DNA from: Defluviitalea phaphyphila
GTDB lineage: Bacteria > Bacillota > Clostridia > Lachnospirales > Defluviitaleaceae
DNA: 37,700 nt
Direction of reading: 5' to 3'
Assembly (NCBI RefSeq): GCF_001466305.1
Contig: NZ_JWID01000011.1
Location: 57,784-95,483 of the forward strand
Below are positions 4,943-36,669 of the stretch, piece by piece. Position 1 is the stretch's first letter. The number at the start of each line of letters is the position of its first letter. The notes beneath the pieces are model-generated. The model was not told where the DNA came from and searched no databases. It saw only the letters and a program-made list of their open reading frames with translations. Both the position numbers and the translations under genes were made by a program.

Positions 4943-4950
4943 AAAACAAT

Positions 4951-5014
4951 ATTTCCCAAATAATGATATTATTTCCCGGGAAATATTTGGAATAAATTAA
5001 AATTATTTCCCAAA
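4951..5014. repeat. Triplicate ATTTCCC motif with a 14-bp palindrome upstream of nth
   Basis: ATTTCCC occurs at 4951, 4971 and 5005. The middle copy forms the perfect palindrome ATTTCCCGGGAAAT (4971-4984), and the outer copies both continue as ATTTCCCAAA. The whole intergenic gap before endonuclease III is made of this. It could be an operator; no T-tract makes it a terminator. Confidence 0.5.
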
Positions 5015-5030
5015 ATTATGAGGTGAGATT

Positions 5031-5690
5031 ATGAATATAGAAACAAAAGTAAAAAAAATATTAGAGCTTTTGGATGAATATTATCCTAAAAATATTAAAT
5101 GTTATTTAAATTATGAAACTCCTTGGCAACTTTTATTTGCGACTATACTTAGTGCACAATGCACTGATGATAGAGTAAATATAGTTACTAAGAATTTATT
5201 TAAAAAATATCCTTCTATTTTAGATTTTGCTCAAGCAGATCAAAAAGAACTAGAACAAGATATAAGGTCTACAGGATTTTACAGAAACAAAGCAAAAAAT
5301 ATAATTTTATGTGCTCAACAATTATTAGAAAAATATAATGGAAAAGTTCCAGATGATATTAACAAATTAACAGAATTAGCTGGAGTAGGTAGAAAAACTG
5401 CTAATGTAATATTAGGAAATATTTATGGGATACCGAGTATTGTAGTTGATACCCATGTAAAAAGAGTATCTAATAGATTAGGACTTACAAATAATACTGA
5501 TCCAACTAAAATTGAATTTGATTTAATGAAAATTTTGCCAGAAGACCATTGGATTAGATATAATACTCAAATTATTGCCCATGGAAGGTCTATTTGTACT
5601 GCAAGGAAACCTAAGTGTAATAATTGTTTTTTATTTCCTTATTGTAATTATGGATTAGATATTGATATGAAAGAAGTTATAAACAAATAA
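5031..5690 (+). CDS. nth: Endonuclease III (DNA glycosylase/AP lyase)
   Basis: A 219-residue base-excision-repair enzyme that removes oxidised pyrimidines and nicks the abasic site. All landmarks are present. The helix-hairpin-helix LAGVGRKTANVILGN (116-130) contains the catalytic lysine at 122. The catalytic aspartate is Asp140 in VDTHVKR. The 4Fe-4S cysteines are at 189, 196, 199 and 205 (C-x6-C-x2-C-x5-C). Length matches the Escherichia coli enzyme. The ATG has a GAGGTGAG ribosome-binding site. Upstream lies a palindromic repeat region that may control it. A small transporter pair follows after 24 bases. Confidence 0.96.
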   Translation: MNIETKVKKILELLDEYYPKNIKCYLNYETPWQLLFATILSAQCTDDRVNIVTKNLFKKYPSILDFAQADQKELEQDIRSTGFYRNKAKNIILCAQQLLEKYNGKVPDDINKLTELAGVGRKTANVILGNIYGIPSIVVDTHVKRVSNRLGLTNNTDPTKIEFDLMKILPEDHWIRYNTQIIAHGRSICTARKPKCNNCFLFPYCNYGLDIDMKEVINK

Positions 5691-5714
5691 ATATTTTAAT
5701 AGGAGGGTAACTTT

Positions 5715-6065
5715 TTGGGAAAAATAAAAATAATAGCTGTAGGATTTGTAACAGGCATGATAAATGGACTTTTTGGAGCAGGAGGAGGAAGTATGGTAGT
5801 TCCTGCTATGGAAAAATTTTTAGATGTAAAAGAACATGAAGCTCATGCTACGGCAATAGCAGTTATTTTACCTTTATCTATTATAAGTACATTTATATAT
5901 GTAAAACATCAAAATATTGTTTGGGAATCAGTATTATATGTTAGTATAGGGGGAATAATAGGAGGGATACTAGGAGCAAAGTTTTTAAAAAAGCTTTCTC
6001 CTAAGTGGCTTCACAAAATATTTGGCTTATTTATGATAGCAGCCTCTATTAGGATGATAATATAA
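5715..6065 (+). CDS. TSUP (TauE/SafE) transporter, N-terminal half-protein
   Basis: A 116-residue integral membrane protein with about four hydrophobic segments. It carries the glycine-rich first-repeat signature of the sulfite exporter TauE/SafE family (GLFGAGGGSMVVPA, about residues 19-32). Usual family members are about 250 residues with two such repeats; this is one repeat. The start is TTG behind AGGAGGG. The stop overlaps the ATG of the next gene by one base (TAATG), so the two are translationally coupled. They probably assemble as a heterodimer that exports or imports a small sulfur or carbon anion; the substrate is unknown. Confidence 0.85.
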   Translation: MGKIKIIAVGFVTGMINGLFGAGGGSMVVPAMEKFLDVKEHEAHATAIAVILPLSIISTFIYVKHQNIVWESVLYVSIGGIIGGILGAKFLKKLSPKWLHKIFGLFMIAASIRMII

Positions 6066-6430
6066 TGATTTTAATAATTATAGGAATTTTATCAGGATTT
6101 ATTAGTGGTATGGGAATTGGTGGAGGAACAATTTTAATCCCCTCTTTGACAATTTTTGCAGAAACATCTCAACATATGTCCCAAAGTATAAATTTGATTT
6201 ATTTTATTCCAACAGCTGTAGCAGCATTGATAATACACATTAAAAATAAAATTATAAAAAAAGAAATTTTAATTTTTTTAATAATAGGAGGAGTATTTGG
6301 GGCATTATTAGGTTCAAGTATAGCCAATTATTTAGAATCAATAATTTTAAAAAAATTATTTGCCATTTTTCTTTTTTTTATGGGGATAGTAGAAATTAAA
6401 AAAACAAAAAAGGAAAAAAAAGGTAAATAG
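6065..6430 (+). CDS. TSUP (TauE/SafE) transporter, C-terminal half-protein
   Basis: A 121-residue membrane protein with four predicted helices. It carries the second copy of the family signature, GMGIGGGTILIPSL (about residues 15-28), and ends in a lysine-rich cytoplasmic tail. It begins on the last base of the preceding half-gene's stop, the typical arrangement for coupled partners. Because each half has its own complete repeat and its own start, this looks like a true split transporter and not a recent frameshift. No ligand-specific residues can be read. Confidence 0.83.
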   Translation: MILIIIGILSGFISGMGIGGGTILIPSLTIFAETSQHMSQSINLIYFIPTAVAALIIHIKNKIIKKEILIFLIIGGVFGALLGSSIANYLESIILKKLFAIFLFFMGIVEIKKTKKEKKGK

Positions 6431-6503
6431 AGAATTATATTTATTAAGGTGTTTACTTTAAGATAGAAGTAAGTGCCAAATATAAATATAAATGGGGGAG
6501 AAA

Positions 6504-7364
6504 ATGGATACAATAAAGAAATGGATAATAAATTATTATCTATGGATAATGTTGGGGTTTTCTATATTAGCAATAGGATTTGCGTGTGCATCTATTTATG
6601 AAGCATATAAATTATTTAATATAAAGAATGAACCTATCATTGAAAAGAAAATAAAAATAATTAAAAAATCTGTAGAAAATACTAAATCTAATAATTTATC
6701 AAAAAAAGAAATTGATATTAAAGTGATAGGAGGAGACACTTTTAAAGAAATACTAGAAAAATTAGAAAATAAAAAAATTATATCAAAAAATGTACTTTTA
6801 AATTATTTGGAAAATAACAACATTAATTTAGAAGGAATAATATTTGAAGGGGAATATAAAATACCAATGGATTCTTCGCCTCAAGAAGTTATATCTATTT
6901 TGACAAAACCTTATGAAGAATGGATTATAAATGAATATAATAATTATAAAGGAATCAATAAAAGTCCCTTAGAAATTATAATTATTGCTTCTATGATCGA
7001 AAAAGAAGCAGCTATAGATGAAGAAAGGCCTATAATTGCGGGAGTAATTTATAATCGTTTAAAAAATAATATGAAGCTTCAAATAGATGCTACTGTTATT
7101 TATGCTTTAGGAGAACATAAAGCTAATCTTTCCTATAAAGACTTAAAAACAAAATCTCCTTACAATACATATATTATAAAAGGACTTCCACCAGGGCCTA
7201 TTTGTACTCCAAGTCAAGAATCAATTAAAGCTGCACTAAATCCTATAGAACATTCATACTTATATTATGTTGTAAGTTCTTATGGAAGTAAAAAACATAA
7301 TTTTGCGGAAACTTATGATGAACATTTAGAAAATGTAGCAAAATATAAAAAGACAATAAAATAG
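6504..7364 (+). CDS. mltG: Endolytic murein transglycosylase MltG (YceG-like)
   Basis: A 286-residue membrane-anchored lytic transglycosylase that cuts nascent glycan strands and so sets their length. An N-terminal membrane helix (about 13-32) is followed by a LysM-like region and the YceG catalytic domain. The active-site glutamate lies in ASMIEKEA (about residue 166), and the family motifs VIYNRL, LQIDATVIYAL, SPYNTY and GLPPGPI follow in order. The chosen ATG at 6504 is three bases behind GGGGGAG; an in-frame ATG at 6492 would put that site inside the gene. It is somewhat shorter than E. coli MltG. A bidirectional terminator separates it from the convergent glycosyltransferase. Confidence 0.92.
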   Translation: MDTIKKWIINYYLWIMLGFSILAIGFACASIYEAYKLFNIKNEPIIEKKIKIIKKSVENTKSNNLSKKEIDIKVIGGDTFKEILEKLENKKIISKNVLLNYLENNNINLEGIIFEGEYKIPMDSSPQEVISILTKPYEEWIINEYNNYKGINKSPLEIIIIASMIEKEAAIDEERPIIAGVIYNRLKNNMKLQIDATVIYALGEHKANLSYKDLKTKSPYNTYIIKGLPPGPICTPSQESIKAALNPIEHSYLYYVVSSYGSKKHNFAETYDEHLENVAKYKKTIK

Positions 7365-7396
7365 CAAAGTTAAATTTTTAGCTTTGCTATTTTATT
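7361..7396. terminator. Bidirectional terminator between mltG and the glycosyltransferase
   Basis: AATAGCAAAG (7361-7370) pairs perfectly with CTTTGCTATT (7383-7392), with a T-rich run after it on the plus strand and an A/T run that serves the minus strand. It lies exactly between two convergent genes. Confidence 0.85.
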
Positions 7397-7416
7397 GTTT
7401 TTATTTTAAATCTAAA

Positions 7417-8580
7417 TTAATTTTTTTCGGGTAAAAGAGATTTATATACCTGTTCTATATTATTCCCAAAGTGAGTAGAAGATAATGGCTCAACCATTAT
7501 GGCAGCATTTTCCGCTAATTTATTTCGAATTTCTTTTTTTGTCAATAGTTCAATTAATATAGAAGGTAATTCTTCATCTTCAGTAAATATTCGCCCATCT
7601 ATGCCATCATTTATTATTCCTTCTATACTTTTATCCTGTTTTGCAACTACTGGAATTTTAGCTGCCATGGCTTCAGCAAAAGTAAGCCCTTGTGTTTCAG
7701 TAATTGAAGCACTTACAAAAACATCGCCTATTTGATAAAATTTACCTATTTCTTTCCAAGGTTGTTCACCAGCAAAAATAACAGATTTAGTAATATTAAG
7801 ATTTTCACATAAGTTTTCTAAGTCTTTTTTTATAGGACCATCTCCTACTATTAAAAGTTTAGTATTAGGGATTTTTGCAAGAATTTTAGGCATTGATTTA
7901 ATAATCACATCAATACTTTTTTCTTTTGCAACTCTACCTATAAATAAAATTACATGATCTGTTTCTTTTATACCTAATTTATTTTTTAGTTGCTCTATTT
8001 CTTTTTTATTGAATTTTTCTTTTTTAAAAGGTTCAATATTGATACCTGTTGGAATAACTTTAATATCTTTTCTAACTCCATATTCTAATAATAATTCTTT
8101 TACTTTATTAGTAGGAGCTATTATTGTATCACATCTGTTACAAAATAATTTGCTTAAGGAACGAGCCATTTTAGGAGTAATTTTTGTCAATTTTCCTTTG
8201 GAAATATAATGAACATAATCTTCATACATTGTGTGATATGTATGAACTATAGGAATATTTAATTTTTTAGACATTATTTTTCCAAATATCCCCAAAGAAA
8301 ATTCTGTTTGAGTATGAATTATATCTAGATTAAGTTGTTTTACTAGTTTTACGGCTTTATGAGAATATATAACTCCTACTCTATGTGATGGAAGAAAAAC
8401 AAAAGGCATACTAGGAAGTCTAAAAACCCTAGGAAGACTTTGTTTGGCTTTGGGATTAGAAGTAGTAAAGATATATACCTTATGACCTTTATCATTTAAT
8501 TCTTTTTCTAAAGTTTTAATAGATGTTACAACTCCGTTAACCTGTGGATAATAAGTATCTGTAAAAATTCCAATATTCAT
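7417..8580 (-). CDS. GT4-family glycosyltransferase, probably diacylglycerol glucosyltransferase type
   Basis: A 387-residue GT-B glycosyltransferase. The N-terminus MNIGIFTDTYYPQVNGV matches the Firmicutes group that glucosylates diacylglycerol or related lipids (1,2-diacylglycerol 3-glucosyltransferase type). The C-terminal sugar-nucleotide site shows FIGRVAKEKS and the GT4 E-x7-E motif in ETQGLTFAEAMA. Expected location is the inner face of the membrane, making glycolipids or lipid anchors. The ATG has GGGGAG upstream. It lies 18 bases behind the TPR membrane gene on the same strand, so the two are likely one operon. The lipid acceptor is inferred from resemblance only; a mannosyltransferase is possible. 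Confidence 0.85.
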   Translation of the reverse strand: MNIGIFTDTYYPQVNGVVTSIKTLEKELNDKGHKVYIFTTSNPKAKQSLPRVFRLPSMPFVFLPSHRVGVIYSHKAVKLVKQLNLDIIHTQTEFSLGIFGKIMSKKLNIPIVHTYHTMYEDYVHYISKGKLTKITPKMARSLSKLFCNRCDTIIAPTNKVKELLLEYGVRKDIKVIPTGINIEPFKKEKFNKKEIEQLKNKLGIKETDHVILFIGRVAKEKSIDVIIKSMPKILAKIPNTKLLIVGDGPIKKDLENLCENLNITKSVIFAGEQPWKEIGKFYQIGDVFVSASITETQGLTFAEAMAAKIPVVAKQDKSIEGIINDGIDGRIFTEDEELPSILIELLTKKEIRNKLAENAAIMVEPLSSTHFGNNIEQVYKSLLPEKN

Positions 8581-8598
8581 AAAAACTCCCCTATTCTT

Positions 8599-9234
8599 TT
8601 ATGAATTCAATATATTATCAATATGATTAATAACTTTTTTTAATATAACATTTCTTTTTTGATTTTTTTCAGCTAATTCTTTTAATTTTAATAATTTACT
8701 TTTTTGGCTATTTTTATTATATATATCTGCAAGCAAAATATAATTTTGACTTAAGTCAGAACCGATAGATATAGATTTTTCAAGTATTTGCACGGCTTCT
8801 TTAACTTTGCCTGCTTCATATAAATATTGTCCCCAGTTTAATAAAGCTCTTATAAGTCTTTGATAATTTTGCTCATAATTAATTAGTATTTCTAAATTAG
8901 CGGAACCATATTTATATTTTAAGTCAGTATTACTTATTCCGTTTAAATTAAGTAATGGTTTAGAAGAAAGAGTTATAGCTAATTGTTGCTGTTCATAAGC
9001 TTGTTTTAGTTTATTAGAAGTTAACTCTTCTTTTTTTAGCATAGGAAGGTCATGTAAAGATATTGAAATATAATCTAAATTTTCAAGAGTTTTTTTTCTA
9101 ACAAACATGGCTTCTCGTTCTTTTTTTAAGAAAGTTTCTCTTGAATTTTTTATTTCTTTTTCAGCTTTTCTAATTTTAATATTATAAAAAATAATAAAAA
9201 TAATAAATATACTAAGAAAAAAAGGAATATTCAT
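8599..9234 (-). CDS. Membrane-anchored TPR-like protein, function unknown
   Basis: A 211-residue protein with one N-terminal membrane helix (about 4-19) followed by a charged coiled-coil-like stretch. The C-terminal half is helical and resembles tetratricopeptide repeats (ALLNWGQYLYEAGKVKEAV at about 130-150, then NYILLADIYNKNSQKSK). It would sit on the membrane facing the cytoplasm. It is the first gene of a minus-strand pair with the glycosyltransferase, which suggests a scaffold or helper role in glycolipid synthesis; that is inference from adjacency. The ATG has AGGAAGAGG upstream. Confidence 0.65.
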   Translation of the reverse strand: MNIPFFLSIFIIFIIFYNIKIRKAEKEIKNSRETFLKKEREAMFVRKKTLENLDYISISLHDLPMLKKEELTSNKLKQAYEQQQLAITLSSKPLLNLNGISNTDLKYKYGSANLEILINYEQNYQRLIRALLNWGQYLYEAGKVKEAVQILEKSISIGSDLSQNYILLADIYNKNSQKSKLLKLKELAEKNQKRNVILKKVINHIDNILNS

Positions 9235-9382
9235 GGCAACCTCTTCCTAATTATTGATTTTCTAATTTATTATAGTCTATTTTTTCCATAAAGTCCATGA
9301 TAAAAATGTACTTTTTATTTTTATATTAGAATAACAAAAATTCTATTGATATGTTATAATAATTTGGTAAGGAGAGATTATT

Positions 9383-9781
9383 ATGCCTAAGCTTGATTTT
9401 TTATACTGGATTCCAGCTATAATTTGGATGTGTGTAATTTTTATTTTATCTTCAATGACTGGTAACGATTTACAGAGGACATTTCCTTTTTTCTCTGATT
9501 TTAATTGGGGACATTTTGTTGCATATTTTATTTTAGCAATTACATATTATATAGGATTATTTAAAAAAGTTAAAAAACCTAGGATATTTTATATAATAAT
9601 TTTATTATGTGTTTTATATGGAATTACTGATGAGGTGCATCAGTTTTTTGTCCCTACTAGAGTACCAGATATAAAAGATTTATTCTCTGATACAATAGGC
9701 TCAATTACTGCTAGTCTTTTTTTAGTAGTAATACACAAATTAAAGGAAAAAGAAGGAAATAATAGGAGTTATTATGAATAA
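9383..9781 (+). CDS. VanZ-like family membrane protein
   Basis: A 132-residue membrane protein with four hydrophobic segments. It has the VanZ-family hallmarks: a polar loop HFVAYFILA, then YGITDEVHQFFVPTRVPDIKD (family pattern DExHQ...R..D..D), then the last helix. Family members include teicoplanin-resistance VanZ, but most copies have no known role. A TATAAT at 9355-9360 may be its -10. Its last eight bases overlap the helicase start, so the two genes are coupled. There is no other van gene in the window, so it should not be read as glycopeptide resistance. Confidence 0.88.
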   Translation: MPKLDFLYWIPAIIWMCVIFILSSMTGNDLQRTFPFFSDFNWGHFVAYFILAITYYIGLFKKVKKPRIFYIIILLCVLYGITDEVHQFFVPTRVPDIKDLFSDTIGSITASLFLVVIHKLKEKEGNNRSYYE

Positions 9782-11969
9782 AGAAAAATTAGAAAAAGAA
9801 TTTATAGAAATTAGAGATCAAATTATAGAAGAAAATTATAAAAATTTAAATGAAAGTCAAAAAAAAGCTGTATTAACAGGAGAAGGACCTCAAATGATTA
9901 TAGCAGGTCCTGGTTCTGGAAAAACTCATGTTATTATGCATAGATTGCATTATCTTACAACTTATGGACCGGTTTATAATACAAAAAAAGTTCCTTTAAT
10001 TATAAATAGAAAAGATATAGATATTATAAAAGAAAATCCAGACCATCCTAGGGCTATAGAACTACTTAATTATTATAGAATTGATCCTAGGAATATTTTA
10101 GTTATAACTTTTACAAAAGCTGCAGCAGAAGAAATGAAGCTTAGATTTTATAATATGAAAAAGGGTGATTTTAAAGGAATTTCTTTTGGAACTTTTCATT
10201 CCGTATTTTTTAGAATTCTTAGGAGTGTATATAATTATTCTTTAGATAAAATTATTAATGAAGACGAAAAAAGATTAATTTTAAAAGAAATTGTAGAAAA
10301 ATTAGAAATAGAATATCATGACGAACAAGAATTCTTAAGTGACCTTCAAAATGAAATAGGAATTATAAAAAATGATTTAATAGATTTAGCCTATTATAAT
10401 TCTATGACTTTACCATCAGAAAAATTTAGAAAGGTAGTTTCATATTATGACAATTATAAATTAAATAATCAAAAAATTGATTTTGATGATATGCTTTATA
10501 ATTGTTATAAACTCCTTTGTAACAATAAGCACGTATTAAATTTTTGGAGAAACAAATATAAATATATTTTAATTGATGAGTTTCAAGATATAAATAAAGT
10601 TCAGTATGAAACTATAAAGCTTTTAAGTTTTCCAAAAAATAATCTATTTATAGTAGGAGATGATGATCAAAGTATATATAAGTTTAGGGGAGCAAGACCT
10701 GAATTTTTGCTTCATTTCCCTAAAGATTTTAATAATACTAGAAAAATTATTTTAGATGTAAATTATCGTTCTACTAAAAAAATTATTAGCATGAGTAATA
10801 GTCTTATTTCAAATAATAAAAACAGATATAAAAAGGAAATAAAGACTTTTAATGAAGAAGGAGAAGCCCCTTTTTTTATTGAATCTAAGGATATTGAAGA
10901 AGAATCACGTAATATTGTAAATTGGATAATTAATTGTAATAAAAAAGGGATTTCTTTTAAAGATATAGCTATTATATTTAGAACAAATATACAGGCTAGA
11001 GCACTAGTAGAAATTTTGATGGATTTAAATATTCCTTTTTGCCTTAGAGATGAAATACCAAATATATATGACCATTGGATAGCAAAAGATCTTATAGCTT
11101 ATATTAAACTTTCAAAAAACATGGGAGATAACAAAAGTCTTGAAAGAATTATAAATAAACCTAAAAGATATATAAGCAAAGGAACAATTTTTGAAGCTAA
11201 GAAAAAAGAAGGAATTTTATTAGATAATTTATACAAAATAAAAAATATAAAAACATGGCAAGTTGATAGATTAGAAGAACTTAAATTTCATTTAAAATAT
11301 ATATCAAAAAAAACTATACCAGAAGCTATTAAATATATTAGAAAAAATATAGGATATGATGAATATATTACAGAATATGCCCAATATAGAAATATAAGCA
11401 TGAAAGGATTAAAAGAAATTTTAGAAGAAATAGAAGAAGGAGCAAAAAATTATCATAGTTATGATAAATGGATTAATCATATTGAAGATGTAGGAAGAAA
11501 AATAAAAGAAGGAAAAATTAAAAAAAATAATAAATTAGATGCTGTAACCCTATCAACAATGCATGGAGCTAAAGGTTTAGAGTTTGAGGCTGTTTGTATA
11601 GCAGGAGTAGTAGAAGGAATTATTCCTCATAATAAGAGTAACTCTTTAGGTGAAATAGAAGAAGAAAGGCGATTATTTTATGTAGGAATCACAAGAGCTA
11701 AAAGGTATTTGCTAATTTCTATTTTAAAAAATAGATATGAAGAAAAAGTAGAACCTTCTAGATTTATAGAAGAAATGATTCCAAAGTCTTCTATAGAACT
11801 ATTTAAAGAAAATACTTATATACATCATAAAATATATGGAAATGGTATAATAAAAAATGTACAAGGAAATATTGCAACAATTAAATTTAAAAAAGGAATT
11901 TTTATTAAAAAAGTCGATTTAAAATATTGTATAGAGAAAAATATAATTTCCATTAAAGATTATAAATAA
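9774..11969 (+). CDS. UvrD/PcrA-family superfamily 1 DNA helicase
   Basis: A 731-residue 3'-5' DNA helicase/translocase of the Rep/UvrD/PcrA family, acting in repair and in removal of proteins or recombination intermediates. The motifs appear in order: Q-motif LNESQKKAV, Walker A AGPGSGKT (about 44-51), motif Ia VITFTKAAAEEM, Walker B LIDEFQDIN, DDDQSIYKFRGA, NYRST, LSTMHGAKGLEF and LFYVGITRAKRYL. About 35 extra residues sit between Walker A and motif Ia relative to PcrA. The C-terminus (HHKIYGNGIIKNVQGNIATI) looks like PcrA's RNA-polymerase-binding tudor-like fold. It overlaps the VanZ-like gene by eight bases. It may be pcrA itself or a clostridial paralogue. Confidence 0.9.
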   Translation: MNKEKLEKEFIEIRDQIIEENYKNLNESQKKAVLTGEGPQMIIAGPGSGKTHVIMHRLHYLTTYGPVYNTKKVPLIINRKDIDIIKENPDHPRAIELLNYYRIDPRNILVITFTKAAAEEMKLRFYNMKKGDFKGISFGTFHSVFFRILRSVYNYSLDKIINEDEKRLILKEIVEKLEIEYHDEQEFLSDLQNEIGIIKNDLIDLAYYNSMTLPSEKFRKVVSYYDNYKLNNQKIDFDDMLYNCYKLLCNNKHVLNFWRNKYKYILIDEFQDINKVQYETIKLLSFPKNNLFIVGDDDQSIYKFRGARPEFLLHFPKDFNNTRKIILDVNYRSTKKIISMSNSLISNNKNRYKKEIKTFNEEGEAPFFIESKDIEEESRNIVNWIINCNKKGISFKDIAIIFRTNIQARALVEILMDLNIPFCLRDEIPNIYDHWIAKDLIAYIKLSKNMGDNKSLERIINKPKRYISKGTIFEAKKKEGILLDNLYKIKNIKTWQVDRLEELKFHLKYISKKTIPEAIKYIRKNIGYDEYITEYAQYRNISMKGLKEILEEIEEGAKNYHSYDKWINHIEDVGRKIKEGKIKKNNKLDAVTLSTMHGAKGLEFEAVCIAGVVEGIIPHNKSNSLGEIEEERRLFYVGITRAKRYLLISILKNRYEEKVEPSRFIEEMIPKSSIELFKENTYIHHKIYGNGIIKNVQGNIATIKFKKGIFIKKVDLKYCIEKNIISIKDYK

Positions 11970-27562: not shown

Positions 27563-27586
27563 GGGCGAAATATTCGCCCATTTTTA
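27563..27586 (+). terminator. Terminator after htrA
   Basis: GGGCGAA (27563-27569) pairs with TTCGCCC (27573-27579), followed by ATTTTTA. Confidence 0.8.
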
Positions 27587-27707: not shown

Positions 27708-28649
27708 ATGCGCTATTTGAAAGACATTAGAGATGGAGAACAAATAATAGGACATTATCTTTGTAAACAAAAACAAACATTAAAATCAAGGGCAGGGAAA
27801 CCCTATATATCCTTAAAATTACAAGACAAAACGGGATTGGTTGATGGTAAGATTTGGGATATTCATAATGAAATAGACGAATTTGATGAAAATTGTTTTG
27901 TTAAAATTGATGGTGTTGTAAGTGTATTTCAAGGAGAATATCAAATAAGTATTAGACGATTAAGAATGAGTATGGAGGGAGAATATGATCCCATGGATTA
28001 TATTCCCTGTACTGAAAAAGATATAAATGGAATGATTGAAAAAATTAAAGAATATATAAATAAAGTAGAAAATGTATATATAAAAAAATTACTTCAATCC
28101 TTTTTTGTTTCGGACGAAGAATTTTTAAAAAAATTTACTTCTCATTCTGCAGCAAGAAGTGTTCATCACAGTTATATGGGAGGTTTATTAGAACATACCT
28201 TATCTGTTGTAGAATATGCAGAATTTCTAGCGAATCATTATACAGGGGTAAATCGTGATATTGTCATTGCAGGGGCAATGCTTCATGATATAGGAAAAAT
28301 AGAAGAATTATCAGAATTTCCTTTAAATGATTATACAGATTTTGGTCAACTACTAGGTCATATTATGATAGGTGTAGAAATGGTAACACAAAAAATAAAT
28401 ATTATAAAAGACTTTCCAGATTCTCTAGCGGCTTTAATAAAGCACTGTATTTTATCTCATCATGGAGAATTTGAATATGGTTCACCTAAAAGACCTAAAA
28501 CTATTGAAGCTATGATTATTCACTGTGCAGATAATACTGATGCAAAAATTAAATTATTCGAAGAAGCTATAAAAGTAGAACACCCTAAAGGAAATTGGGT
28601 TGGATATAATAGAATGTTAGGAAGAAATATAAGAAGAAGTGATTTTTAG
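27708..28649 (+). CDS. yhaM: 3'-5' exoribonuclease YhaM (OB-fold plus HD domain)
   Basis: A 313-residue nuclease that trims RNA, and in some species DNA, from the 3' end. The N-terminal OB-fold (about 1-90, DKTGLVDGKIWD) binds nucleic acid. The HD phosphohydrolase domain carries the metal ligands in VHHSYMGGLLEHT (about 152-164), MLHDIGK (H193, D194) and SHHGEFEYGSPKRPKT. Length and layout match Bacillus YhaM/Staphylococcus Cbf1. The ATG has GGAGG upstream. The stop is immediately followed by the first of the two Cas4-like half-genes, suggesting co-transcription of three nucleases or nuclease parts. Confidence 0.94.
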   Translation: MRYLKDIRDGEQIIGHYLCKQKQTLKSRAGKPYISLKLQDKTGLVDGKIWDIHNEIDEFDENCFVKIDGVVSVFQGEYQISIRRLRMSMEGEYDPMDYIPCTEKDINGMIEKIKEYINKVENVYIKKLLQSFFVSDEEFLKKFTSHSAARSVHHSYMGGLLEHTLSVVEYAEFLANHYTGVNRDIVIAGAMLHDIGKIEELSEFPLNDYTDFGQLLGHIMIGVEMVTQKINIIKDFPDSLAALIKHCILSHHGEFEYGSPKRPKTIEAMIIHCADNTDAKIKLFEEAIKVEHPKGNWVGYNRMLGRNIRRSDF

Positions 28650-28952
28650 GTGAAAATGCATAATGACAGTAAAACGATATCAGCAGGTGAAATAAATAAA
28701 TTTATTTATTGTCCATATCAATGGTATTACACAAGATTATATGGTAGTGATAAATTAAGAGAACTAGTAAAAGAAAGAAATAAAAATTATGGTTATGAGA
28801 ACATAACACAAAATAATTTTGATAGAGGAAATAGATTTCATGCACAATATCATAGATATTATAAAATAAAAAATAGAATAAAGTTTATTTTTTTAATAAT
28901 CTGTGCTATAGCTATAGCCGCTATTATTATTTGGGTGATGCAATATGAGTGA
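28650..28952 (+). CDS. Cas4-like nuclease, N-terminal half with C-terminal membrane helix
   Basis: A protein of 98-100 residues that begins at the yhaM stop (GTG at 28650, or ATG at 28656; the site AGGTG fits neither ideally). Its N-terminus has the Cas4/RecB-type opening EINKFIYCPYQWYYTRLYG with the first cluster cysteine. Later comes FDRGNRFHAQYH, matching the G-x3-H motif of Cas4 nucleases. It then ends in one membrane helix (about 78-98). The catalytic PD and ExK motifs are missing here but present in the next gene, which overlaps by eight bases. I read the two as halves of one membrane-attached nuclease. Homologue support has not been checked. Confidence 0.7.
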   Translation: MKMHNDSKTISAGEINKFIYCPYQWYYTRLYGSDKLRELVKERNKNYGYENITQNNFDRGNRFHAQYHRYYKIKNRIKFIFLIICAIAIAAIIIWVMQYE

Positions 28953-29508
28953 TTTATATATTATATGGGGAATATTGATTTTTCCCCTCTTTTTTATGAT
29001 ATTTAAAAAAAAGGATATTAAAATAAAAAAACCTAAATTAGGAGTTTTTGGAGCAGATATAATTTATACAGATCAAAAAGAAAAAAATAAATCTCCTTAC
29101 GTAGAATATGGTAAAATATTATATTCTAAAAAATATGATATAAAAGGGAAACCAGATTATATATTTAAAAAAAGATGGACAGGAGATTTAATTCCTGTTG
29201 AACTTAAAAGTGGAACAATAAAAAAAGATAATATAAAGCCTTATGAAGGAGATATGATGCAATTAGCAGCATATTTTTTAATTATTGAAGATGTATATCA
29301 TAAAAGACCTAAAGAGGGAAGATTAATATATAGTAATTATATGTTTATTATAAGGAATACATGGAAACTAAGACGAAAAACAAAACATATTCTAGCAGAT
29401 ATGAGAAATATGTTAGAAACGGGAGAACAAAGTGTCAATCCAAATTTCATAAAATGCCGATATTGTATATGTAGAGAAACAGTATGCGAATATTATAAGG
29501 AGGATTGA
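28945..29508 (+). CDS. Cas4-like PD-(D/E)XK nuclease, C-terminal half with N-terminal membrane helix
   Basis: A 187-residue protein. One membrane helix (about 3-20) opens it. Then follow the nuclease motifs in order: GKPDYIF (motif II aspartate), VELKSG (ExK), MMQLAAYFLI (QxxxY helix), and a C-terminal KCRYCICRETVCEYY giving three or four cysteines for an iron-sulfur cluster. This is the rest of a Cas4/Dna2-type exonuclease whose first cysteine and histidine sit in the preceding gene. The ATG overlaps the preceding stop region by eight bases (offset reading frame). There is no CRISPR array or other cas gene in the window, so the role is probably repair-related. Confidence 0.75.
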   Translation: MSDLYIIWGILIFPLFFMIFKKKDIKIKKPKLGVFGADIIYTDQKEKNKSPYVEYGKILYSKKYDIKGKPDYIFKKRWTGDLIPVELKSGTIKKDNIKPYEGDMMQLAAYFLIIEDVYHKRPKEGRLIYSNYMFIIRNTWKLRRKTKHILADMRNMLETGEQSVNPNFIKCRYCICRETVCEYYKED

Positions 29509-29509: not shown

Positions 29510-29680
29510 ATGAATAAAAATAAATCAAATAAAAATAATAAAAATTTACAAAATAAAAACAAAAAGATATTAGATATTAGTAATGTAAAAAATCCTATAG
29601 AAGAAGCACTTAAAAATAGTAGTGATGAAGTATTAGCAAAAGCTATACAGGATTTGCTAAAAAAAGATATGCTTAATTAA
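29510..29680 (+). CDS. 56-residue basic, asparagine/lysine-rich protein, unknown
   Basis: A short gene with AAGGAGG six bases before its ATG, starting one base after the Cas4-like half-gene. The first 20 residues are almost all Asn and Lys, probably disordered and nucleic-acid-binding. The rest (NPIEEALKNSSDEVLAKAIQDLLKKD) is one or two amphipathic helices. It ends 17 bases before the RlmD-type start. I do not recognise it; its position suggests a partner of the Cas4-like pair or of the methylase. Confidence 0.6.
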   Translation: MNKNKSNKNNKNLQNKNKKILDISNVKNPIEEALKNSSDEVLAKAIQDLLKKDMLN

Positions 29681-29697
29681 GAAAGTTGGAGGAAAAT

Positions 29698-31071
29698 ATG
29701 GATACATTACCAATTAAAAAAAATATGCACTTTGAAATGACAATAGATGACATAGGTGTAAAAGGAGAAGGGATAGGGAAAATAGATAATTTTACAGTAT
29801 TTGTAGAAGGAGCTCTACCAAAAGATAAAATAGAAGTTAGAATAATAAAGGTTAAAAAAAATTATGGTTTTGGAAAATTAATTAGAATTATAGAAGCTTC
29901 TCCTATGAGAATTACTCCTAAATGTCCTTATGCTAAAAGATGTGGTGGATGTCAAATACAGCATTTAGATTATAAAGCACAATTAGAGTTTAAAACTAAA
30001 AAAGTAAAAGATAATATAGAACGAATAGGAAAATTAAATGATGTAATAGTATATCCTACTTTAGGAATGAAAGAACCTTTTTATTATAGAAATAAGGCAC
30101 AATTCCCAGTAGGAATTAAAGATGGAAAAGTTCAAATAGGATTTTATGCTCCTAGAAGCCATGATATTATAGATATTTCAAAATGCTATATACAAGACCC
30201 TATAAATAATAAAATAATAAATATAATTAGAAATTATATTGAAAAGTATAAAATTCCAGTTTATGATGAAAAAAAACATAAAGGACTTATTAGACATATA
30301 TTAACTAGAGTAGGATTTACAACAAAAGAAATCATGGTTTGTATTGTTATTAATGGAGAAAACCTTCCTCATAAAGATAAATTAATATCAAAACTTATAA
30401 AAATTTCTGGAATGACTAGTATTGTGTTAAATCACAATACTAAAAAAACCAATGTAATTTTAGGAGAGAAAATAACCACCCTATGGGGAAAAAATTATAT
30501 AACTGACTATATAGGAGAAATAAAATTTGAAATTTCTCCATTATCTTTTTTTCAAGTAAATCCTATACAAACAAAAGTTTTATATGAAAAAGCTTTAGAA
30601 TACGCAAGATTAATAGGGGAAGAAATAGTATGGGATGCCTACTGTGGCATAGGAACTATCTCACTTTTTCTTGCAAAGAAAGCAAAAAAAGTTTATGGAG
30701 TTGAAATAGTAAACGAAGCCATAGAAGACGCAAGGAAAAACGCAAAAATAAATAATATAGATAACGTAGAATTTTTTGTAGGCAAATCAGAAGAAATAAT
30801 TCCAGAAATGTACGAAAAACAGGGAATAAAAGCAGATGTAATAGTAGTAGATCCCCCACGAAAAGGCTGCGATGAAATTTTGCTTAATACCATGGCAAAA
30901 ATGGAACCAAGAAGAATAGTTTATGTATCCTGTGACCCAGGAACCCTAGCAAGAGATTTAAAAATATTAAATGAAAAAGGATATAAAGTAGAAAAAGTCC
31001 AGCCTGTGGATATGTTCCCAAATACGACGCATGTGGAGTGCGTCACATTGATGTCAAAGGTTGAGAAATAA
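29698..31071 (+). CDS. rlmD: 23S rRNA (uracil-5-)-methyltransferase, RlmD/RlmCD family
   Basis: A 457-residue RNA m5U methylase. An N-terminal TRAM domain (about 1-65, GVKGEGIGKIDNF and FVEGALPKDKIE) is followed by the iron-sulfur cysteines at about 76, 82 and 85 (CPYAKRCGGC), with a fourth in SKCYIQDP. The Rossmann methylase domain has DAYCGIGTISLFLA, VVDPPRKGCDE and the catalytic cysteine in VYVSCDPGTLARDL. In low-GC Gram-positives such enzymes modify U747 and/or U1939. The ATG at 29698 follows TTGGAGGAAA; an in-frame TTG at 29686 overlaps that site. It is the last chromosomal gene before the restriction-modification island. Confidence 0.92.
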   Translation: MDTLPIKKNMHFEMTIDDIGVKGEGIGKIDNFTVFVEGALPKDKIEVRIIKVKKNYGFGKLIRIIEASPMRITPKCPYAKRCGGCQIQHLDYKAQLEFKTKKVKDNIERIGKLNDVIVYPTLGMKEPFYYRNKAQFPVGIKDGKVQIGFYAPRSHDIIDISKCYIQDPINNKIINIIRNYIEKYKIPVYDEKKHKGLIRHILTRVGFTTKEIMVCIVINGENLPHKDKLISKLIKISGMTSIVLNHNTKKTNVILGEKITTLWGKNYITDYIGEIKFEISPLSFFQVNPIQTKVLYEKALEYARLIGEEIVWDAYCGIGTISLFLAKKAKKVYGVEIVNEAIEDARKNAKINNIDNVEFFVGKSEEIIPEMYEKQGIKADVIVVDPPRKGCDEILLNTMAKMEPRRIVYVSCDPGTLARDLKILNEKGYKVEKVQPVDMFPNTTHVECVTLMSKVEK

Positions 31072-31694: not shown

Positions 31695-32420
31695 ATGGCT
31701 GATTCAATTTTATATAACGAAGACTGCATACGCGCAATGAAGCGTCTTGCGAGTGATTCAATCGATCTTATTCTAACTGACCCGCCATATAATTTAGGAA
31801 ATTTTATGAAGGATAGGGACACAAACCTAAAAAAGATGCGTGATAACTTTTTTGGTGCAGCTGGCTGGGACAATTTAAGTTTTGAAGAGTGGGAAAAATC
31901 GATGGATAGCTTTTTTAAGGAAGCTGTTCGAGTTCTTAAAAAAGGTAGTGCTATGCTTGTATTCATGTCAATTATAAAAGTGGAGACACTCATTAAGATT
32001 GCTGAGAGACATGGGTTATATTACAAGACTACTGGTATTTGGCATAAATTGAATCCAATGCCACGTAATATGAATTTACATTTTGTAAATTCAACAGAAG
32101 CATGGGTATATTTTACATACAAGAAAAAGACAGGTACATTTAATAATGATGGAAAGGTGTTACATGATTTTATAGAAACAGCAGTAGCAGCGAATGGTGA
32201 GCGTAAATACGGTAAGCATCCTACACAAAAGCCAGTTCAATTGATGGAGTTCTTCATTAAAGTATTAACTAATGAAGGTGATACAGTTCTTGATCCTTTT
32301 ATGGGAAGCGGGAGCACAGGTGTAGCTGCTAAAAAAAATAACAGGAACTTTATAGGGATTGAAATAGATGACAACTATTTTCAGATTGCAACACGTCGTA
32401 TACAAGAGGTGAAAGAATGA
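31695..32420 (+). CDS. Beta-class DNA methyltransferase with DPPY motif (N6-adenine or N4-cytosine)
   Basis: A 241-residue methylase. The catalytic motif IV DPPY is at residues 29-32 and the S-adenosylmethionine motif I DPFMGSGSTG near the C-terminus (about 200-209), an order that defines the beta class. The preceding HPTQKPVQLMEFFI is motif X. DPPY favours N6-adenine, though N4-cytosine cannot be excluded. It would protect one strand of the island's recognition site. The ATG follows AAGAGG at a 10-base distance. Its last four bases overlap the next methylase (ATGA). Base composition is clearly richer in G and C than the chromosomal genes to the left. Confidence 0.93.
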   Translation: MADSILYNEDCIRAMKRLASDSIDLILTDPPYNLGNFMKDRDTNLKKMRDNFFGAAGWDNLSFEEWEKSMDSFFKEAVRVLKKGSAMLVFMSIIKVETLIKIAERHGLYYKTTGIWHKLNPMPRNMNLHFVNSTEAWVYFTYKKKTGTFNNDGKVLHDFIETAVAANGERKYGKHPTQKPVQLMEFFIKVLTNEGDTVLDPFMGSGSTGVAAKKNNRNFIGIEIDDNYFQIATRRIQEVKE

Positions 32421-33490
32421 AGCCAACGGTAATTGATTTATTTGCGGGGGTTGGTGGCCTTTCCCTTGGGTTTGAAATGGCTGGATTTAATGTTGTTCTT
32501 GCAAATGAATACGATAAATCTATTGCAGAGGCATATAAATTGAATCATCCCAATACGAAAATGGTTGTTGCGGATATTAGAAATTTACCAATAGAATATA
32601 CATTTGCTGAGTATCGTGCCAATATAGATGTTATTATTGGTGGACCACCTTGTCAGGGATTTTCTCAGAAAGGGCAACGGAGGACCATTAATGATGAGCG
32701 AAATTTTTTGTTTAAATATTTCGTCGCTGTCGTTGACTATATCCGCCCACAGTATTTTGTAATGGAAAATGTACCGAACATCCTTACGGCTGAAAATGGT
32801 TATTTTAAAAAAGAGATAAACGAGCTGTTTAATAAATTAGGATATTCGTTAAATATGGGTATTTTAAATGCAGCTGACTACGGAGTACCTCAGAATCGAA
32901 GAAGAACGATCATAATCGGTAAAAAAGGGGCACCTGCTCCTGATTTACCAAAACCACATAATACCAGAGTAACTATATGGGATGCAATAAGTGATTTAGC
33001 ATTTTTGAATTCCGGAGAGGGCTCTGAAAAACAAGAGTACAAGTTTGAACCACAGAGTGAGTATCAAATAAAAATGCGAAACGGGAGCCAATATCTTTAT
33101 AATCATGTTGCTACAAGGCATTCAAAGTTAGCACTTGAACGTTTAGCGATGATTCCACCGAATAGTGGGAAAGAAGTTTTACCAGAGGAGCATCTAACAA
33201 AATCAATTTATAGTGGAACATGGACGAGAATGTGTAAAGATGAAGTATCTGTAACGATTACAACGAGATTTGATACACCTTCTTCTGGGAAATTTACACA
33301 CCCATTTTTAGATAGGGCTATCACTGTACGTGAAGCTGCACGTTTGCAGTCATTCCCAGACACCTTTAGATTTATAGGCACAAAAGGATCGCAGATGAAA
33401 CAAGTAGGAAATGCTGTGCCACCTTTACTTGCCAAAGAAATTGCTGAAATAATAAAATTAGATATGGAAAAGGATGGGGGAATCAAATAA
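32417..33490 (+). CDS. DNA (cytosine-5-)-methyltransferase of the island
   Basis: A 357-residue m5C methylase with every key motif in order: I LFAGVGGLSLGF (8-19), IV GGPPCQGFSQ with catalytic Cys79, VI ENVP (117-120), VIII QNRRR (159-163), a variable target-recognition region (about 200-300) and X QVGNAVPP (329-336). It starts at an ATGA overlap with the adenine/N4-cytosine type methylase. Presumably it protects the second strand of an asymmetric site. A related dcm-type solitary role is unlikely because it sits in an operon with two restriction subunits. Confidence 0.95.
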   Translation: MKPTVIDLFAGVGGLSLGFEMAGFNVVLANEYDKSIAEAYKLNHPNTKMVVADIRNLPIEYTFAEYRANIDVIIGGPPCQGFSQKGQRRTINDERNFLFKYFVAVVDYIRPQYFVMENVPNILTAENGYFKKEINELFNKLGYSLNMGILNAADYGVPQNRRRTIIIGKKGAPAPDLPKPHNTRVTIWDAISDLAFLNSGEGSEKQEYKFEPQSEYQIKMRNGSQYLYNHVATRHSKLALERLAMIPPNSGKEVLPEEHLTKSIYSGTWTRMCKDEVSVTITTRFDTPSSGKFTHPFLDRAITVREAARLQSFPDTFRFIGTKGSQMKQVGNAVPPLLAKEIAEIIKLDMEKDGGIK

Positions 33491-33491
33491 C

Positions 33492-35360
33492 ATGAAAAGA
33501 CCAGATAATATTATAAACTATAGTGAGATCGACTTAAAATTAGGTATTAAGTCTTCATTGCCCAATGCTAAATCAACTCTTGCTTTATTAATTCTTTTAT
33601 GGGAAAGCTCTGGTAAACCTGCTGAGTTAGCGTATTCGCAGCAGAAAAATGATGGTATTATTTTAGATAATAAAGTTGAAGAATCGTTAATAGCTACTTT
33701 AAAACCACTTTACTCAACTGTGGGTATATCAGATGAAACATTTATTTCAAAAGTGAATGAAAACCAAATTTTTAAATCACAATTGGAATCTCTAATAGTT
33801 GCATTTGAATTAGTTTGGAAAATGGCTAGGATTAAGTTTACTGATGAAAATAAGCCTGCAAGTGCAGAACGTACTGGGCGCATTAGGTATCCTAAAAAAT
33901 TATATTACACAATACACATGGATATCTTAGACACAGTTATTTCGGCAAATAATGAAGGCTATTATGCAGTTTTACTTAATTGGCTCGGCATCCCGATTAA
34001 TTTTGATACGACTTATGAGTCTATGTTGATTAAAATTCTCACTGTTTTTTCGGAAAATGCTGTTTTTAAACTTGTTGATGGGGATAAGGATGTAATATTT
34101 AATTTAAATAGCATATATAAAAAAATTATCGAAACTAATGATTCTGTGGATATTAACGGTGATAGAGAAGCAAAAGGACCTCTTAGAATTCTTAAATCAT
34201 TATTATCTGATGGGTTAAATCCTTATTTAAACTATAACTCTGGAATAGTGTCTGCAAAAGAAAATATAGAATTATATCAAAGACGAGTAGATGCTTATTT
34301 AGCTTTGTCATCTAGTAGAATTTATGAAGTTGAAGCAAATGCGAATGAAGACATAGTTGCTGAATCGGTATCGGATTATTCGGTGCCACGAAAAACTGGT
34401 GGATGTAATATTCTTTTATATGGTGTGCCTGGTGCCGGTAAAAGTTACACCATAAAAACTGAATATTGTGATGATCCGTTGCGTATGGAGAGAGTTGTAT
34501 TTCATCCAGATTATACATATTCAGATTTTGTAGGTCAAATTTTGCCGAAAGTATCGGAAGAGGGACTGGTAAGCTATGAGTTTACAGAAGGCCCTTTTAC
34601 TCGTTTGCTGAAAAAAGCATACCAAAATCCTGGTGCGGAATACTACCTTATAATTGAAGAAATAAATAGAGGCAATGCCCCTGCAATATTTGGAGATGTG
34701 TTCCAATTATTGGACAGAGATTCTGAAGGAAATAGTGAATATGGCATTTCAAATGCAGATATTGCTAGAAAAGTTTATGGAGATGAAAGCAGATTGGTAC
34801 GCATTCCTTCAAATATGTATATTATAGGAACAATGAATACCTCTGACCAAAATGTTTTCACTCTTGATACAGCATTTCAGCGCAGATGGATTATGAGGAT
34901 GATTGAAAATGATATGAATAAGGTGGAGCAAAAGTTCGCAAATCATAAAATATTGGATTCTGATATCACATGGAAACAATTTAATGCTGTGATAAACGAT
35001 ATAATTCTGAAAAAGAACTTACATATGACATCATCCGAGGATAAACGGCTTGGTGTATTTTTTGTTCACGAACGAGATTTAGAATACAACAATGCTGAAG
35101 ATGACATTTCTCTTCCAGAGGATGAAAGAATCAAAGCGGCTCATGACAATAGCCGCTTTCCGGAAAAGGTATTAAAATATTTATGGGATGATGCGTTCAA
35201 ATTTTCAAGAGATGCTGTTTTTGAAACGAACTTATATTTCAGTTTGGAAGATATAGTTAGAAAATTCAAATCTTCCAAAGGAAATGAAAGGTTTGCTATT
35301 TTTAAAGAAGAGATTTATAATGCGTTCTTATCACCGGAGAATGCAGGCAATGAAGAATGA
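33492..35360 (+). CDS. McrB-like AAA+ GTPase/ATPase restriction subunit (LlaJI R1 type)
   Basis: A 622-residue motor subunit. The N-terminal half (about 1-290) is unlike anything I recognise and should contain the DNA-recognition part. The AAA+ module has Walker A YGVPGAGKSYT (about 309-319), Walker B YYLIIEEINRGNAPAIFG (about 382-399) and the McrB signature MNTSDQNVFTLDTAFQRRW (about 450-468), the counterpart of McrB's MNTAD GTP-specificity motif. The ATG at 33492 has GGGGGA upstream inside the end of the methylase gene; an ATG at 33474 lacks a site. It works with the nuclease encoded next, 19 bases later. Type II LlaJI and type IV McrBC share this plan. Confidence 0.9.
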   Translation: MKRPDNIINYSEIDLKLGIKSSLPNAKSTLALLILLWESSGKPAELAYSQQKNDGIILDNKVEESLIATLKPLYSTVGISDETFISKVNENQIFKSQLESLIVAFELVWKMARIKFTDENKPASAERTGRIRYPKKLYYTIHMDILDTVISANNEGYYAVLLNWLGIPINFDTTYESMLIKILTVFSENAVFKLVDGDKDVIFNLNSIYKKIIETNDSVDINGDREAKGPLRILKSLLSDGLNPYLNYNSGIVSAKENIELYQRRVDAYLALSSSRIYEVEANANEDIVAESVSDYSVPRKTGGCNILLYGVPGAGKSYTIKTEYCDDPLRMERVVFHPDYTYSDFVGQILPKVSEEGLVSYEFTEGPFTRLLKKAYQNPGAEYYLIIEEINRGNAPAIFGDVFQLLDRDSEGNSEYGISNADIARKVYGDESRLVRIPSNMYIIGTMNTSDQNVFTLDTAFQRRWIMRMIENDMNKVEQKFANHKILDSDITWKQFNAVINDIILKKNLHMTSSEDKRLGVFFVHERDLEYNNAEDDISLPEDERIKAAHDNSRFPEKVLKYLWDDAFKFSRDAVFETNLYFSLEDIVRKFKSSKGNERFAIFKEEIYNAFLSPENAGNEE

Positions 35361-35379
35361 ACAAAGGCGGTGAGATAAC

Positions 35380-36669
35380 TTGGCAATAGTGTCTGATTTA
35401 TTTAATCGTTGCCGTGTTAATAAAAACGATGATGGAGATCGCTTTGTCGGTGTTAAAGCTGAAGATGATAATGTAGTTGTTTATTTTCCAATTGGATATG
35501 AATTGCCGAAAACGGAGCAAGATTTACGTCAAGATATACTTCACCTTTTCTCTGTCTTGGCAGAATTTACAAGTCGGGATGACAGGATTCTTCCTATGAA
35601 GAAATTTGAAGCTCCTCAATCAGTGGATTTCCCTATAAATGCTTATTTGGAAATAATTAATTACTTCATGGAGCAAAATGGATATTATACTGAAAAGGAA
35701 CCAGTGTATAAAACAAACGATCGAGGAAAGATAGACTGGTCAAGGACAATAAAAAGGCAGCGTCCGTTAATTCAAGCTAATGGTTCTCCAGTATATACCC
35801 AGTATACTGTAAGGTTCTCGTCTCCGAATGATAAAAATTTGATTACTCAGATACACAAGTATTGTGTTTACGAAAGTTTTTCTAAATTGGGATGGTTGTT
35901 TACTCCACTTCTACCTGAGCAACCTTTATTACGAAGAGATGATAAAATGTTTTTATCAGTGTTGTATGAAAAAATGGCCAATACATATAATGATAGAGAT
36001 AAAAGGCTTTTCTCAGCAATGATTTCCATGATAGAGTATTTGGATGAGCAACCTAATCAGAAACAGTTTTATTTTGGCACAGACCGGTTCGAATATGTAT
36101 GGGAGAAGCTTATTGACAGAGTATTTGGAATAAAAGATAAGCAAAACTATTTCCCTAAAACAAGATGGACTCTTAGGACAGGAAAGAAGAAAACAAATGC
36201 AGCATTGGAACCCGATACTATAATGTTATATGATGGGAAAATATATGTGCTTGATGCAAAGTACTATCGTTTTGGTATTACCGGAGATCCTAACGATTTA
36301 CCAGAGTCTTCGTCGATAAATAAACAAATTACATATGGAGAATACATATATACACAGAAGAAGTTTAAAGAGAAATATGGTGAAGATGTGCCGGTTTATA
36401 ATGCGTTTATTATGCCATACAACGCAAATAATAATTTGTTTAGCTCAAATGAAATATTTTTGAACATTGGTGAAGCTACAGGAGACTGGAAAACAAAAGG
36501 GCATAGGTATGAGAGAGTGCAAGGAATTGTCGTCGATATCCATTATTTAATGCATCATTATATCGGTAAAACTGAAAATCAAATTATGCAATTGGCTAAA
36601 TCTATTGAAAGTGCTTTTGAACGGAATAAAGGTGCATTACCAACGGATAGCATCTCGGCTGTAGTTTAG
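35380..36669 (+). CDS. LlaJI-family PD-(D/E)XK restriction endonuclease subunit (McrC-like)
   Basis: A 429-residue nuclease subunit. The PD-(D/E)XK site is visible as EPDTIMLYDGKIYVLDAKYY, with E277, D279, D292 and K294, preceded by FEYVWEKLIDRVFG (237-250), which is where McrC/LlaJI R2 proteins also have their catalytic domain. The N-terminal part (1-160) contacts the McrB-like partner in related systems. It starts at TTG behind AAGGCGGTGA. Together with the upstream AAA+ gene it should cut unmodified target DNA. The family name rests on gene order and the motif; McrC proper cuts methylated DNA. Confidence 0.85.
   Translation: MAIVSDLFNRCRVNKNDDGDRFVGVKAEDDNVVVYFPIGYELPKTEQDLRQDILHLFSVLAEFTSRDDRILPMKKFEAPQSVDFPINAYLEIINYFMEQNGYYTEKEPVYKTNDRGKIDWSRTIKRQRPLIQANGSPVYTQYTVRFSSPNDKNLITQIHKYCVYESFSKLGWLFTPLLPEQPLLRRDDKMFLSVLYEKMANTYNDRDKRLFSAMISMIEYLDEQPNQKQFYFGTDRFEYVWEKLIDRVFGIKDKQNYFPKTRWTLRTGKKKTNAALEPDTIMLYDGKIYVLDAKYYRFGITGDPNDLPESSSINKQITYGEYIYTQKKFKEKYGEDVPVYNAFIMPYNANNNLFSSNEIFLNIGEATGDWKTKGHRYERVQGIVVDIHYLMHHYIGKTENQIMQLAKSIESAFERNKGALPTDSISAVV

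Follow-up and report, generated by a model that had tools for sequence, protein, structure and literature searches.

Two-gene branch of the Cas4 nuclease family with predicted membrane helices at the cut, found beside yhaM in Defluviitalea phaphyphila and its relatives

INTRODUCTION

Cas4 and AddB nucleases carry an iron-sulfur "iron staple" held by one N-terminal and three C-terminal cysteines (PMC3466216). In the same paper, the Cas4 protein Sso0001 is a 5'-3' exonuclease of single-stranded DNA (ssDNA) that works with magnesium or manganese and also cuts RNA, more slowly, with manganese; a second Cas4, Sso1391, was inactive, and zinc replaces iron in a related fold (PMC3466216). Cas4 homologs encoded outside CRISPR loci (solo-Cas4) have been surveyed, and the abstract of the survey describes their functions as uncharacterized (PMC5704561). 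Its main text, taken without the supplements, contains none of the terms "transmembrane," "split," or "YhaM," and the open-licence literature searched, again excluding supplements, yielded no split or membrane-bound Cas4. YhaM, which is encoded next to the genes described below, degrades single-stranded RNA and ssDNA in vitro (PMC11347170).

Here, we describe a gene pair of Defluviitalea phaphyphila that a first-pass annotation had read as a Cas4-like nuclease divided over two overlapping genes, with a membrane hairpin inserted between its motifs. The window is the whole stretch of DNA that was analyzed (37,700 nucleotides; positions 57,784 to 95,483 of contig NZ_JWID01000011.1), and unlabeled coordinates refer to it.

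RESULTS

A gene pair divided in the same place across many genomes

Both proposed open reading frames (ORFs) are present (Table 1). They overlap by 8 nt, and the downstream gene (the C-half) lies in frame +1 relative to the upstream gene (the N-half). Judged by the close relatives, which have an ATG at the corresponding place, the ATG at 28656 is the likelier N-half start than the GTG.

Table 1. Positions of the gene pair, its neighbors, and its predicted elements in the window
Feature	Position	Strand	Basis or remark
yhaM homolog, directly upstream	27708..28649	+	313 aa; OB fold and HD domain; PF01966, PF01336; PRK13480/YhaM 197.6 bits, below the cut-off of 460
N-half gene	28650..28952	+	100 aa, GTG start; ORF list
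Cys21 codon, putative iron-sulfur ligand of chain 1	28710..28712	+	Invariant in 42/42 pairs
Predicted membrane helix 1, N-half residues about 79-97	28884..28940	+	Sequence; hydropathy of relatives; helix 53-97 of the joined model
C-half gene	28945..29508	+	187 aa; ORF list
Predicted membrane helix 2, C-half residues about 4-20	28954..29004	+	Sequence; hydropathy of relatives; helix 103-118 of the joined model
Codons of Cys171, Cys174, Cys176, and Cys181, putative ligands of chain 2	29455..29487	+	171/174/181 in 42/42 pairs; 176 in 41/42
Small ORF, possible third gene, not universal	29510..29680	+	56 aa; conserved tail DEVLAKAI..LL; tails alike in relatives
RNA methyltransferase, RlmCD/TrmA-like by eye	29686..31071	+	Conserved downstream neighbor

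A C-half query matched 20 of 57 related genomes. One match (L020 in G055) was rejected as an apparent chance match opposite a penicillin-binding-like ORF (by eye), and in G001 the pair is interrupted by a contig end. Searching a collection of species genomes with one degenerate pattern gave 60 stretches, of which 41 were confirmed and are hereafter called the named loci; they include representatives of Anaerotignum, Cellulosilyticum, Niameybacter, Sporanaerobium, Chakrabartyella, and Candidatus Epulonipiscium. The halves are separate ORFs in all 41. Within the order, 95 of 392 genomes contain C-half matches, 86 of them strong (E ≤1.3e-49); 85 have frames of 172 to 228 aa, which fit the C-half alone, and one (G450, discussed below) has a frame of 277 aa. 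Nine genomes (i.e., seven of family f6, G502, and G001) gave only weak matches, of which, apart from those rejected below, only that of G001 was opened. All 28 loci retrieved from this search (L069-L096) are split.

In another class of the same phylum, family f170 has the pair in 19 of 20 genomes and family f151 in both of its genomes, and it was found in none of the 13 and 2 genomes of two further families. All 20 loci fetched from this class count as split, 10 of them on single-contig genomes. One of the class's genomes (L104 in G1009) has the N-half itself in two frames beside an intact C-half, which stems from error or decay. Among 398 genomes of the phylum, a C-half profile found 23 cases, of which 8 are split pairs and the other 15 are Cas4s with cas1-like genes next to them (by eye). 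Weak C-half matches considered as unsplit relatives (L021, L023-L027, and L126-L140) were rejected, as they adjoin cas1-, cas2-, or cas7-like genes (by eye). The sets of 41, 28, and other-class loci partly overlap in genomes, and their counts are not additive.

Relative to the N-half, the C-half is read in frame 0, +1, or +2, with gaps of -74 to +206 nt when the first start codon is taken mechanically. Three frame relations and such widely varying gaps speak against frameshifting and against assembly error. Purifying selection acts on both halves (dN/dS of 0.05 to 0.19 in six locus pairs), which places the observation beyond chance.

Catalytic residues and cysteines divided between the halves

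The motifs were as first described, with a cysteine motif (YCPYQWYY) and G-x3-H in the N-half and the PD, ExK, QxxxY, and cysteine motifs (GKPD, ELK, QLAAY, and CRYCICRETVC) in the C-half. Across 42 pairs (i.e., the window and the 41 named loci), Cys21, Gly60, and His64 of the N-half and Asp71, Glu86, Lys88, Gln106, Tyr110, Cys171, Cys174, and Cys181 of the C-half are invariant. Every pair thus has the complete His, Asp, Glu-x-Lys, and Gln-x3-Tyr set of a PD-(D/E)XK site, together with one N-terminal and three C-terminal cysteines, divided over two chains. The first-pass annotation had counted four cluster cysteines, three of them in the second gene. Four do match the Cas4 staple; the C-half, however, has four cysteines rather than a triad, which makes five in the pair. 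Because Cys176 is missing in L032 (it is present in 41 of 42 pairs) and in the other-class member L103, the residues that match the staple are 21, 171, 174, and 181. The C-terminal spacing is C-x2-C-x6-C in the window and C-x2-C-x5-C in L103 and in single-chain Cas4s.

Profile searches assign the two halves to the two ends of the family, with some blurring at the boundary. The window N-half matched PF12705 at positions 1-50, with 22 bits at a cut-off of 22 (19.4 bits, below the cut-off, in the genome search), and had no NCBIfam match. N-halves of relatives matched the start of TIGR00372 weakly and under its cut-off in three of five cases (1-44, 1-55, and 4-48) and not at all in two, and that of L103 gave a weak Exo5 match, also under the cut-off. 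These matches to the start of PF12705 or, weakly, of TIGR00372 exclude that the first gene belongs to another family, an outcome that would have refuted the original reading. The window C-half scored 73.8 bits against TIGR00372 (cut-off, 65; positions 52-179), matched PADLOC Cas4 models by itself, and scored 19 bits against PF01930, below the cut-off of 22.7, which the L098 and L103 C-halves and those of the two tested plasmids did pass. C-halves of L060 (63.7), B. subtilis (58.7), and Paludisphaera (46.7) fell below the TIGR00372 cut-off. Coverage is not cleanly complementary in every case: the L098 C-half reaches back to TIGR00372 position 8 and that of Paludisphaera to position 33, and the window C-half reaches back to position 11 of one PADLOC model, in each case through the membrane helix.

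A predicted membrane hairpin at the cut and a fused homolog

Each half has one predicted membrane helix, and both helices are located at the cut. The hydrophobic 17-residue peak is at least 1.90 in 40 of the 41 named N-halves and at least 1.77 in all 41 C-halves; the exception, L050, has an N-half peak of 0.18 and no helix. On the expected cytosolic side, net charge is at least +1 in the N-halves and at least +2 in the C-halves, in all 41 of each (L050 included), and on the outer side it mostly stays between -2 and +2; L037 and L046 reach +3 ahead of the C-half helix. The positive-inside rule is an established guide to membrane protein topology, and on account of this inner-side positive charge the soluble part of each chain is expected to be cytosolic, a topology that is inferred and not supported by any experiment. 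At L050 (4731-4967), where the N-half lacks the helix, a single stop codon separates it from the C-half, which continues in the same frame.

A fused homolog whose membrane hairpin sits at the corresponding position, which the first-pass annotation had suggested looking for, exists at L146 (genome G450, family f16). Both halves there occupy one natural 275-aa ORF that overlaps a yhaM-like ORF (by eye), and two hydrophobic segments with a short loop stand where the window has its gene boundary. The protein scored 27.5 bits against PF12705, above the cut-off of 22, and its alignment to one PADLOC Cas4 model spans both halves (6-273). The fused form is known from this one genome only (completeness, 76%). 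Two genomes of family f16 were examined for further members; the only match was the same gene, and the other genome had none.

Structure model of the joined chain

The two frames of the window were joined in silico across an artificial junction and modeled with an alignment of 34 N-half and 35 C-half rows from the named loci, in which some 13 columns close to the membrane helices seem to be misaligned. AlphaFold gave a mean pLDDT of 87.3 and a pTM of 0.78. The best solved match by VIA-align was Cas4-Cas1 7mi5 (7mi5_A; Z 14.4, 169 aligned, rmsd 3.6, end residues 5 and 285), and others were Cas4 8d3l (Z 14.0), human EXO5 (Z 12.4), and AddB (Z 8.8); for 7mi5, 8d3l, and EXO5, the aligned ends fall in both halves. 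Foldseek likewise ranked Cas4s best, with TM-scores by query length of only 0.26 to 0.45 among the 25 best matches, which are low because the hairpin is extra. A sequence profile matched Cas4 8d3l over the C-half only (E 2.4e-5). The proposal that two chains make one nuclease is therefore supported to the extent that the joined chain takes a Cas4 fold across both halves; artificial joining favors contact between the chains, and the heterodimer remains inferred.

Independence from CRISPR-Cas

We built a tree from 27 joined pairs (i.e., the window, 20 of the 41 named loci, three other-class loci, and three plasmids) and 19 single-chain Cas4s. All pairs fell on one side of a branch (96/91) and all Cas4s on the other. 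The Cas4 rows are those met in our searches, not the whole family (L026 was not included, and the motif filter removed L126 and L128), and the position of the root is undetermined. Long branches lead to the Cas4 of the window's own genome and to the B. subtilis pair, and composition is unusual in three split rows (L067 and both planctomycetes).

The first-pass annotation had stated that there is no CRISPR system here. This is correct for the neighborhood of the pair and fails for the genome: another contig (C13) carries cas1, a single-chain cas4, and an array of 28 repeats. The operon there (L116, G000:C13:1-16000, 103-10320) looks type I-B-like by eye, and its cas4 lies at 3357-3890. A cas1 search of 65 pair-bearing genomes, chosen for completeness from the 93 then known (86 of the order and 7 of the other class), gave a match in 32 and none in 33. 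In the order, the pair adjoins yhaM (40 of the 41 named loci) and a methyltransferase gene (41 of 41) rather than cas1 or cas2. From the separate branch, the genomes without a cas1 match, and the separate single-chain cas4, we conclude that the pair is a distinct split branch of the Cas4 family, tethered to the membrane by prediction, and not a CRISPR gene.

Neighboring genes, plasmids, and phages

The pair follows yhaM in the window, as first noted, and in 40 of the 41 named loci yhaM is the gene immediately before it. A methyltransferase gene, presumably RlmCD/TrmA-like in the window (by eye), lies within 400 nt downstream in all 41. The neighborhood differs in the other class, where each of the seven loci read has a polysaccharide deacetylase gene after the pair (by eye; by Pfam for L098), and the split stays. 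Between the C-half and the methyltransferase gene, the window has a small ORF that overlaps or follows the C-half in close relatives. It was rejected as a constant third part, since the strict motif DEVLAKAI..LL occurs in only 4 of the 41 named loci, a lower bound given that similar tails occur elsewhere. Its model, made without an alignment (three helices; pTM 0.38), was left out of use.

A promoter scan found 20 sites in the window versus 26.1 in shuffled sequences, and 6 terminator-like sites were found versus 0.9. One of the latter (27563-27579) follows the gene upstream of yhaM. Another, a hairpin with a T-run, lies inside the start of the C-half gene (28967-28986), and we have no explanation for it. 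Farther downstream, at 31695-36669, is an LlaJI-type restriction-modification cassette with two methyltransferases, an AAA restriction subunit, and an LlaJI restriction endonuclease.

Four plasmid records matched the window C-half. The B. subtilis NRS6107 plasmid (L141, 2342-5663) has, in this order, genes for a DinG-type helicase, a 77-aa ORF, the N-half, the C-half, and Hfq, and the annotated layout in NRS6116 is the same; record CP120602, also among the matches, was not opened. Plasmid pairs of Paludisphaera and Singulisphaera lie near genes for a DNA methyltransferase and a MobF relaxase, and a Planctomyces copy, beside an IS701 transposase gene, has no recognizable N-half. The pair thus occurs in at least two bacterial phyla and on plasmids. 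No tblastn match to the C-half of the window, B. subtilis, or Paludisphaera was found in 50,697 phage records, none of the 24 IMG/VR stretches that fit the single pattern used was confirmed, and BFVD returned general Cas4-like folds.

DISCUSSION

The pair shares with Cas4 (COG1468, PF01930, and TIGR00372) the fold of the joined model, the catalytic motifs, and the arrangement of one N-terminal and three C-terminal cysteines. It differs in its two chains, its predicted membrane hairpin, its separate branch, and the lack of a cas1/cas2 neighborhood; as a Cas4 homolog outside CRISPR loci it qualifies as a solo-Cas4 (PMC5704561). AddB likewise has an iron-sulfur staple nuclease, which is a domain of a large helicase-nuclease, and genes of AddA and AddB size occur elsewhere in the same genome (judged by size). 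Human EXO5 (exonuclease V) has the iron-sulfur nuclease fold and is a single chain; we know of no membrane hairpin in it.

Each of the two genes probably contributes one chain to a single nuclease of the Cas4/AddB type, its fold divided at a membrane hairpin. The complementary halves, the predicted helices with their charge pattern, the fused form, the common branch, and the independence from CRISPR are present in the sequences, and from them we infer, without any experiment, the topology, the dimer, the cluster, and the nuclease activity. Chain 1 would supply the N-terminal cysteine and the motif-I histidine and end in a membrane helix. Chain 2 would begin with the partner helix and supply the metal-binding Asp, Glu, and Lys, the Gln-x3-Tyr motif, and the C-terminal cysteines. 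The cytosolic parts may then come together as one nuclease, kept in place by the pair of helices and by a staple whose ligands come from both chains and bridge the two polypeptides.

The division itself could have other causes. L050 and L144 and the G1009 N-half appear reduced or disrupted, as they might if the split were an assembly error or a decaying pseudogene; the identical cut in single-contig genomes and complete plasmids and the retention of all catalytic residues in 42 of 42 pairs leave that explanation virtually no room, and a sequencing error, which the first-pass annotation had allowed for, is excluded by the split in 41/41, 28/28, and 20/20 loci with three frame relations and the low dN/dS of 0.05 to 0.19. 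Programmed frameshifting or stop read-through, which would join the halves into one chain, could draw on the common 8-nt overlaps and on the fused form; with relations of 0, +1, and +2, gaps of -74 to +206 nt, no common slippery design, and a C-half start codon near the junction, we hold it to be highly improbable. The idea that the pair is a displaced Cas4 of a CRISPR adaptation module, partnering Cas1-Cas2, is just as improbable: it can point to the C-half score above the TIGR00372 cut-off, the PADLOC matches, and the cas1 matches in 32 of 65 pair-bearing genomes, yet 33 of the 65 have no cas1 match, in the window's genome a single-chain cas4 accompanies cas1 and the 28-repeat array, the pair adjoins yhaM (40/41) and the methyltransferase (41/41), and the pairs branch apart from CRISPR Cas4.

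The role of the two-chain nuclease can be assigned from family and context only. Given the activities of Sso0001 and YhaM and the iron staple of Cas4 and AddB, a membrane-tethered, metal-dependent exonuclease would be expected. We tentatively propose, short of even confidence, that the pair acts at the inner membrane face, probably on ssDNA, and is coexpressed with YhaM; its activity is inferred, and its substrate may be DNA that enters or lies at the membrane. It may serve DNA entry, repair, or replication, or else RNA turnover; the fixed neighborhood argues for a housekeeping role, and the plasmid copies argue for DNA transfer or exclusion. Against a role on DNA, the neighbors YhaM and the methyltransferase act on RNA, and such conserved RNA enzymes on both sides could instead point to a membrane nuclease of RNA decay or rRNA maturation, comparable in placement to RNase Y, which sits at the membrane. 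A Cas4 homolog did cut RNA with manganese, but the same tested Cas4 preferred DNA (PMC3466216); moreover, the other-class neighbors differ, with a polysaccharide deacetylase downstream, and the plasmid copies lie among DNA-processing genes, which makes an RNA role unlikely. A defense or exclusion nuclease that degrades foreign DNA crossing the membrane would suit the predicted placement and the plasmid copies in B. subtilis and planctomycetes, and a Synechococcus Cas4-like protein is reported to lower plasmid transfer or maintenance (PMC10653904). However, the order keeps one fixed neighborhood, and in one family 19 of 20 genomes carry the pair, unlike patchy defense genes, and we regard defense as doubtful, if not quite so doubtful as the RNA role.

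The pair adds a new variant to the Cas4 family, one whose split membrane form is absent from the open-licence literature searched. Such a family is easily hidden in databases as a "CRISPR-associated Cas4" plus a hypothetical protein, and its C-halves may sit unnoticed in the solo-Cas4 survey data (PMC5704561). Because a C-half alone can pass the curated cas4 cut-off, as that of the window does, automatic annotation and CRISPR counts can err in these genomes. It is conceivable, though we would not yet lean toward it, that the pairs are an ancient family of obligately two-chain, membrane-anchored ssDNA nucleases, in which staple and active site are completed only when the chains meet and the cluster is an assembly- or redox-controlled lock; the substrate would be ssDNA at the inner membrane face, in entry, transfer, or replication. 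An iron-sulfur site common to two membrane proteins, if true, would be a simple redox or assembly handle on a nuclease. The branch narrows the solo-Cas4 question to proteins with a predicted place at the membrane, a yhaM neighborhood in one order, and an activity that may be tied to the meeting of two chains.
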